From assembly GCF_011045195.1 (NCBI RefSeq), contig NZ_CP049199.1, positions 4,323,501 through 4,387,500 of the forward strand: a stretch of 64,000 nucleotides of DNA, written 5' to 3'. The notes under the pieces were generated by a model. It ran no database searches, was not told where the DNA came from, and saw nothing but the letters and a program-made list of their open reading frames with translations. This document shows positions 36,720 to 36,981 of this stretch, piece after piece (position 1 is the stretch's first letter; the number at the start of each line of letters is the position of its first letter). This DNA is from Caulobacter soli. GTDB lineage: Bacteria; Pseudomonadota; Alphaproteobacteria; Caulobacterales; Caulobacteraceae. Made by a program: the position numbers and the translations under genes.

Positions 36720-36850
36720 GCGTCTCCTGAAGATGCGGAGGCGCGGGGATGTCTGCCGGTGTGGACAGGCCCCGCGCATCGGCGGGGCTGCTGTCCGGGG
36801 TGTCGCGCTCTAGACCTCGCGCATACCCGCACACGCCCCGCACGAGCGGG
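36720..36850 (-). promoter_or_regulatory. Predicted attenuator-type RNA leader of asd
   Basis: On the transcript (minus strand), segment 1 CCCGC (36850-36846) pairs with segment 2 GCGGG (36841-36837). Segment 2 GCGGGGC (36841-36835) also pairs perfectly with segment 3 GCCCCGC (36788-36782). Segment 3 pairs with segment 4 GCGGGGC (36775-36769), and this last stem is extended by GGACAG/CTGTCC (36796-36791, 36768-36763). These three pairings exclude one another. Beyond them GCGCCTCC (36744-36737) can cover the asd ribosome site GGAGACGC (36727-36720). Segment 1 falls within the leader peptide codons. No T run follows the 3:4 stem, so control may act on translation or through Rho. Confidence 0.65.
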
Positions 36851-36893
36851 TCGTTTTGCGAATAATAATGGCTTTGGTCATCGCGACGGACAT
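36810..36893 (-). CDS. Putative leader peptide of asd, rich in aspartate-family amino acids
   Basis: A 27-codon frame with ATG at 36893 (or the in-frame ATG at 36881) and TAG at 36810. Residues 5-15 read MTKAIIIRKTT: one Met, three Thr, two Lys and three Ile in eleven codons. Met, Thr, Lys and Ile are the end products that depend on Asd. The frame ends 96 bp before asd. A promoter-like pair on the minus strand (TTTACA at 36930-36925 and CCTAGA at 36909-36904) would start RNA within about ten bases of the first ATG. Stalling of ribosomes at the run would free segment 2 of the leader RNA. The frame was found by hand and has not been compared with relatives. Confidence 0.6.
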   Translation of the reverse strand: MSVAMTKAIIIRKTTRSCGACAGMREV

Positions 36894-36981
36894 GGCGCAG
36901 CTCTCTAGGGACCAAAGCGGCGGATGTAAACCGCCGGCGATCTTCGCCGCCCCGCTCGACCGTTCGGGGAGCTCCAGATTT

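Follow-up and report, generated by a model that had tools for sequence, protein, structure and literature searches.

A threonine- and lysine-rich attenuator-like leader upstream of a second asd gene in Caulobacter soli and other Alphaproteobacteria

The window analyzed here is a stretch of 64,000 nucleotides from the genome of Caulobacter soli. Its minus strand carries an asd gene and, upstream of it on the same strand, a short open reading frame (ORF) that is preceded by promoter-like boxes and followed by a series of complementary segments (Table 1). A preliminary description of this DNA had interpreted the arrangement as an attenuator-like leader of asd. The 27-codon frame is present as claimed, and it contains the stretch MTKAIIIRKTT, in which 9 of the 11 residues are Met, Thr, Lys, or Ile. 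The four segments are present as well, with stems 1:2, 2:3, and 3:4 mutually exclusive. The GGACAG/CTGTCC extension of 3:4, noted in the same description, is there in the window but, by eye, recurs only in some close relatives and is not conserved. Outside the leader, asd and a gene encoding a peptidoglycan-binding domain (37042-37818) are flanked by two mutually similar hypothetical genes on the minus strand (34276-35421 and 37826-38869), both without a Pfam match.

Table 1. Features of the leader and the asd gene, in the direction of transcription (positions within the window)
Feature	Position	Strand	Remarks
-35-like box, TTTACA	36925..36930	-	box pair in 75/76 leaders
-10-like box, CTAGAG	36903..36908	-	8-9 nt to start codon in 62/75; putative promoter function
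Leader ORF, 27 codons, MSVAMTKAIIIRKTTRSCGACAGMREV, stop TAG	36810..36893	-	read from sequence
Lys codon AAA, predicted stall site that masks segment 1 in full and leaves segment 2 uncovered	36855..36857	-	
Thr codons ACG ACC, also likely control codons (second group)	36849..36854	-	
Segment 1, CCCGC	36846..36850	-	pairs with segment 2
Segment 2, GCGGGGC	36835..36841	-	pairs with 1 or 3
3:4 extension, GGACAG/CTGTCC	36796-36791/36768-36763	-	read from sequence
Segment 3, GCCCCGC	36782..36788	-	pairs with 2 or 4
Segment 4, GCGCGGGGC	36769..36777	-	GCGGGGC (36775-36769) pairs with 3, GCGCGGGG with 5
Segment 5, CCCCGCGCCTCC	36737..36748	-	CCCCGCGC pairs with 4, GCGCCTCC with 6
Segment 6, GGAGACGC, with the ribosome-binding site of asd	36720..36727	-	read from sequence; swap test
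asd, ATG at 36713, second aspartate-semialdehyde dehydrogenase of the genome	35670..36713	-	NCBIfam TIGR01296 and PRK14874 above cut-off

The 251-nt region folds better than expected from its composition (z = -3.0; 1 of 200 shuffles equally good). A long structured 5′ region upstream of an aspartate-pathway gene could be a metabolite-binding riboswitch, for example, one for lysine, but an Rfam scan of the window returned no family at gathering score, a search of five leader loci at E ≤ 1 found only a chance snoRNA match away from the leader, and the region is accounted for by conserved coding content. We rejected this highly improbable reading on the absence of an Rfam match and on the conserved coding content.

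A search with the Asd protein against 61 genomes yielded 26 window-type loci with readable upstream DNA (L001-L027, less L019, where the contig begins at the gene), all of which contain the leader ORF and both hairpins. A covariance model built from these leaders and run on 398 Caulobacterales genomes matched 72 at E ≤ 0.01. At E ≤ 1e-8, 62 of the 64 matches are located upstream of an asd ORF and the other two at contig ends (L053 and L091); among the 13 weaker matches, none of the seven that were read lies upstream of asd. Counting one leader per genome gave 76 Caulobacterales leaders, every one with an open frame (23-27 codons). Common to these genomes are the Thr/Lys/Ile-rich ORF, the promoter-like boxes, and the exclusive helices before asd. 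Gaps within the ORF, judged by eye in the alignment, are whole codons, and gaps of one or two bases occur after the stop. In the control region, pN/pS did not clearly single out the coding frame: it was 0.169/0.291 in frame versus 0.230/0.180 and 0.165/0.434 in the other frames (14 distinct regions compared, with L001 and L008 excluded because of indels). The lack of a clear frame signal, together with the abundance of short GC stems in GC-rich genomes, would fit a chance ORF beside chance hairpins; against this, 76 Caulobacterales genomes and members of further orders share the ORF, boxes, helices, and next gene. Chance, to which we assign next to no probability, was rejected as contradicted by this conservation.

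In the alignment of the 26 initial loci, helices 1:2 and 3:4 are paired in 99.5% of cells, with two-sided changes in 4 of 14 pairs (0/500 shuffles), and helix 2:3 is paired in 98.9%, with two-sided changes in 2 of 7 pairs (5/500 shuffles). The number of further pair types in the same alignment is unexceptional (221/500 shuffles for 1:2 plus 3:4 and 487/500 for 2:3). A wide alignment showed the helices paired in 94% of cells versus 46-53% for helices slid along the sequence; two-sided changes were as many in the slid helices as in the true ones. Most g12 leaders have a mismatch within 1:2. The preliminary description had called for alignment of the asd upstream DNA from relatives: in Caulobacterales, the frame is kept, and the pairings are kept with compensatory change, in agreement with an attenuator-like leader.

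A pair of boxes, one resembling TTTACA and the other of the form nTAnnn, precedes 75 of the 76 leader ORFs (the exception is L022). In a scan that takes the best of five spacings, the two are 16 nt apart in 74 of the 75, and in 62 of the 75, the pair ends 8-9 nt upstream of the leader start codon. The boxes place the 5′ end of the mRNA probably at the leader start codon or a few nucleotides from it, rather than downstream of 36810, the outcome that the preliminary description had named as contradicting its proposal. Reported precedents include 375 leaderless mRNAs in Caulobacter crescentus (PMC4117421) and the Sinorhizobium meliloti trp leader RNA, described as having its 5′ end at the AUG of the leader ORF (PMC10117765).

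Across the Caulobacterales control regions (without L088, whose anchor is out of frame), Thr is encoded in 75 of 75, Lys in 74, Ile in 70, and Met in 29. Thr and at least two Lys codons are found in all 21 asd leaders from outside the order, Ile in 5, and Met in 7. Asd feeds the Lys, Thr, Met, and Ile pathways, and the earlier proposal was that all four amino acids are sensed; equal sensing does not agree with these counts, in which Thr and Lys are constant, Ile is common in Caulobacterales, and Met is sporadic. The leader does have the attenuator trait of codons for end products of the regulated gene (Thr and Lys, with Ile in the order). The codons chosen are also distinctive: AAA:AAG is 60:2 and ATT:ATC is 52:4 in 33 Caulobacter leaders, which are related so that the counts are not independent, versus 2:48 and 4:59 in five ORFs of the window. 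A stalled ribosome covers about 11 nt past the first base of the A-site codon. With the masking position set by this footprint, the codon that starts 7 nt upstream of segment 1 encodes Lys in 73 of 74 tabulated leaders (L088 dropped, L092 absent), and the two codons after it usually encode Thr. Ile codons start 13-19 nt upstream of segment 1, too far for simple masking of this segment.

The preliminary description had further suggested that the asd ribosome site is itself covered, and indeed GCGCCTCC (36744-36737) faces GGAGACGC (36727-36720) with seven of eight pairs and one C-A mismatch. Just upstream of the ribosome site, CCCCGCGC of segment 5 is complementary to GCGCGGGG of segment 4, and in segment 5, the stretch that pairs with segment 4 overlaps the one that pairs with the site. 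Both helices are kept with different letters in L024 (GAUGCGGG:CCCGCAUC and GCAUCUC:GAGAUGC) and in L092 (GAGACGGGG:CCCUGUCUC and GUCUCUC:GAGAGAC), and L089 has CGUUUC with an altered ribosome site, GGAAACG. An alignment of segments 3-6 (A2, covering 48 of the 76) put segment 5 in the wrong place in divergent clades, and the pairing was therefore evaluated by duplex energies with a species-swap permutation on 29 species chosen to span clades. Own arms paired better than swapped ones in both helices: -20.9 versus -17.8 kcal/mol for 4:5 and -11.9 versus -10.0 kcal/mol for 5:6 (0/20,000 permutations each). For the 5:6 helix that holds the ribosome site, own arms beat the swap mean in 23 of the 29 species and were no better in six (L090, L102, L138, L195, L202, and L207); for 4:5, six species were no better as well (L025, L026, L106, L113, L138, and L152). 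The own arm was the single best partner in just 4 of the 29 rows for either helix. By within-sequence shuffles, p was below 0.05 for 4:5 in 47 and for 5:6 in 35 of the 76 leaders.

The mean cost of opening the ribosome site was 5.6 kcal/mol with 2:3 enforced and segment 1 masked versus 8.3 kcal/mol with 3:4 enforced, and it was lower in the former state in 65 of the 76 leaders. With 3:4 enforced under the same mask, as a control, the mean was 6.9 kcal/mol, and 2:3 was cheaper in 54 of 76. The mean probability that the site is unpaired changed little, being 0.31 with 2:3 enforced versus 0.25, higher in 47 of 76 leaders (medians 0.30 and 0.32). In equilibrium folding with a ribosome placed at each leader codon, the asd site stayed closed in Caulobacter (33 leaders), g12, g14, and f2g2, and a rise in opening was confined to three leaders of g17, the four of f3g6, and L092. 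Given the closed site in Caulobacter, we do not claim a switch from equilibrium energies. The sequence data suggest a relay through 4:5 and 5:6, with switching modeled as requiring that 2:3 forms during RNA synthesis.

On this evidence, the leader probably acts as a ribosome-stall sensor, that is, an amino-acid attenuator, that controls the second asd by release of its ribosome site. Transcription would start at the leader ATG or a few nucleotides from it. Under a shortage of charged Lys-tRNA or Thr-tRNA, and in this lineage possibly of charged Ile-tRNA as well, a ribosome would stall on the leader and cover segment 1, allowing 2:3 to form; segment 4, left free, would take segment 5, and segment 6, with the asd ribosome site, would be released for translation of asd. 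With a good supply, or with the leader untranslated, 1:2, 3:4, and 5:6 would form, and asd would be off. Where relatives have a U-tract behind 3:4, this hairpin could also end transcription.

As the preliminary description stated, no T run follows 3:4 in the window. By the criterion of five or more U among the 9 nt that follow 3:4, a U-tract is present in 0 of 33 Caulobacter, 0 of 13 g12, 0 of 13 f2g2, 1 of 8 g14, 0 of 4 g17, and 0 of 1 f2g30 leaders. All four f3g6 leaders have one; this trait of intrinsic terminators, missing from the window leader, is general in that group. L024 and L071 combine a U-tract with segments 5 and 6, whereas in L086 and L087, two of the f3g6 leaders, the U-tract is present and segments 5 and 6 are, by eye, absent. 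U-tracts also occur in some leaders outside Caulobacterales (L138, L144, L145, and L152). Such leaders, along with the modest energy evidence for the relay, would be expected if the system worked by transcription attenuation only, with 3:4 ending transcription, alone or with Rho, and the ribosome-site helix incidental. We regard this as unlikely, though with an appreciable chance of being correct: the U-tract is missing from Caulobacter, g12, and f2g2 altogether, and for both 4:5 and 5:6, arms from one species pair better than arms from different species. The lack of U-tracts in Caulobacter makes a translational output likelier in that genus. The earlier preference for translational or Rho-dependent control over intrinsic termination is accordingly supported in its translational part, and Rho-dependent ending may also take place. 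We read the leaders as one family with two outputs, of which only the translational one is evident in Caulobacter.

Among 385 Alphaproteobacteria genomes, Caulobacterales included, a covariance model denoted R1 matched 25, and a wider model built from 41 sequences (R2) matched 48, with 55 matches. Of the 51 R2 matches that were read (four were left out), 23 precede asd, 14 precede thrS, 7 are leader-like and precede other or unidentified genes, and 7 are non-leaders, the last two classes being sorted by eye. NCBIfam profiles applied to ten proteins identified the window gene and those of L028, L092, and L105 as Asd, and those of L112, L141, L149, L150, L154, and L161 as threonine--tRNA ligase; the other eight thrS genes were named by motif or likeness. 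The thrS leaders serve as a natural control. Over the final ten residues of the control region, Thr accounts for 55% and Lys for 4% in these leaders (13 of 14; L141, with an ambiguous frame, was left out), compared with 52% and 25% in the 21 asd leaders from outside Caulobacterales. Two or more Lys are found in 21 of 21 of these asd leaders versus 1 of 13 thrS leaders, counts that involve related sequences. Lys codons are thus a trait of the leaders before asd, a gene that feeds both Lys and Thr.

A functional small protein made from the ORF, or a leader RNA that acts in trans as an sRNA, with cis control of asd secondary, could also be considered, given the trans role stated for rnTrpL and peTrpL of S. 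meliloti (PMC10117765). This appears quite improbable: the peptides conserve composition (Thr, Lys, and Ile) across clades and not one sequence, and asd or thrS adjoins the leader in 37 of the 51 R2 matches read. We conclude that the leader is a real and widespread variant of attenuation, with the amino-acid response and the translational output predicted from sequence.

The preliminary description had referred to a lone asd gene, which is incomplete: the genome encodes another asd (G000:C1:5002070), 50% identical to that of the window. At least two asd genes were found in all 30 leader-positive genomes tested. In 192 genomes at least 90% complete (E ≤ 1e-40), at least two asd genes are present in 32, one in 137, and none in 23. 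The asd leader occurs in 16 of the 32 multi-asd genomes versus 0 of the 137 with a single asd, a count that leaves out two R2 matches (G498 and G588). In a seventeenth multi-asd genome, G468 (L176), a weak leader emerged only from a search of the upstream DNA; L176 shows an ORF that includes Thr and Lys, and a hairpin resembling 3:4 with TTTGTTTTTT after it. This was the only leader match (E 5e-6) in the upstream DNA of 23 other asd loci (L028-L030 and L169-L188), L028 giving a chance-level match on the other strand, and five window-type second asd copies (L169 and L172-L175) had none. The leader thus marks many, not all, second asd genes.

Among the best 80 named of 569 loci, the window Asd is 67-72% identical to actinobacterial Asd, versus 50% to the other Asd of its own genome. 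The R2 leader is present in 19 of the 22 alphaproteobacterial loci of this set, which include L192, titled only “bacterium” (it is absent from L194, L196, and L203), and in none of the remaining 58, two of which (L222 and L247) are without upstream DNA. In a tree of 54 proteins, midpoint-rooted and partly unsure owing to the long branch of L105, the window type clusters with Actinomycetota and is separate from both the three housekeeping copies and a second leader-linked type. The greater proximity to actinobacterial Asd than to the copy in the same genome suggests gene transfer, and transfer of the gene with addition of the leader within Alphaproteobacteria would be the simplest reading.

Classical thr, ilv, his, and trp attenuators consist of a leader ORF with control codons, exclusive helices 1:2, 2:3, and 3:4, and a terminator with a U-run. 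The window leader shares the control-codon ORF and the exclusive helices; it differs in the lack of a U-run, in the extra segments 5 and 6, and in its Lys and Thr (and Ile) codons. In 2003 and 2004, Chen and Yanofsky reportedly described a leader peptide that controls translation of Bacillus subtilis anti-TRAP. There, as proposed here, leader translation sets initiation at the next gene according to tRNA charging, but the anti-TRAP leader is combined with a T-box, responds to a single amino acid, and has no exclusive-helix chain like 2:3 and 4:5 of the window. Translational T-boxes of actinobacterial ileS genes likewise connect amino-acid supply with ribosome-site access, through sequestor and anti-sequestor hairpins, but are described as sensing by tRNA binding, whereas the sensor proposed here is a stalled ribosome (PMC1262725). 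The alphaproteobacterial attenuator rnTrpL of S. meliloti has an RNA that starts at the leader AUG, with Trp codons and trpE as the target (PMC10117765); the corresponding start site of the window leader is the one predicted from the boxes. A published precedent is SEP5 of S. meliloti, a translated small ORF that lies in the 5′-UTR of a gene named aspartate dehydrogenase and includes six codons for Thr and three for Lys; its authors suggest a leader peptide (PMC10117765). Compared by description, both are short Thr/Lys-rich ORFs before an aspartate-pathway gene, but SEP5 is described as conserved only in Sinorhizobium, and that description is given without the helices, ribosome-site relay, and second-asd link of the window leader (PMC10117765). 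With SEP5 published, the idea of a Thr/Lys leader in the aspartate pathway is already in print. In the literature searched, with most subscription journals outside the search, we found no account of an asd leader with these structures, breadth, second-asd link, or relay. New relative to the preliminary description are the 4:5 pairing, the association with a second asd, the sharing of the leader with thrS, and the SEP5 precedent.

More broadly, it seems an even call whether these leaders make up a single alphaproteobacterial RNA family that senses shortage of Lys or Thr (in some lineages, Ile or Met as well) by ribosome stalling and relays the signal over six segments to the ribosome site of a reserve asd, with the output (terminator or ribosome site) and the downstream gene (two asd types and thrS, mostly with Thr-only leaders) shifting while the leader logic stays. 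If so, the supply of the aspartate family in many alphaproteobacteria would be tuned by a starvation-driven second Asd, and one RNA sensor would read at least two end products. The family would form a set of natural variants that differ independently in output mode, codon set, and gene, so that the logic of stall sites and the shift of attenuation from transcription to translation could be tested directly, and unannotated small ORFs upstream of asd and thrS would acquire a function.

Several minor observations concern leaders outside the main set. The thrS products of L112, L141, L149, L150, and L161 are short forms, and their match to the threonyl-tRNA synthetase profile begins only near position 166, the N-terminal part being missing; that of L154 matches from the profile start. 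R2-matching leader-like ORFs precede genes other than asd and thrS in L139, L142, L143, L147, L148, L155, and L164 and are possibly further attenuators of the same build. L092, from family f2 (Caulobacterales), and L103/L104, from family f44 of the same class, have near-identical leader peptides and closely grouped Asd proteins, so that leader and asd look as if they had moved together.
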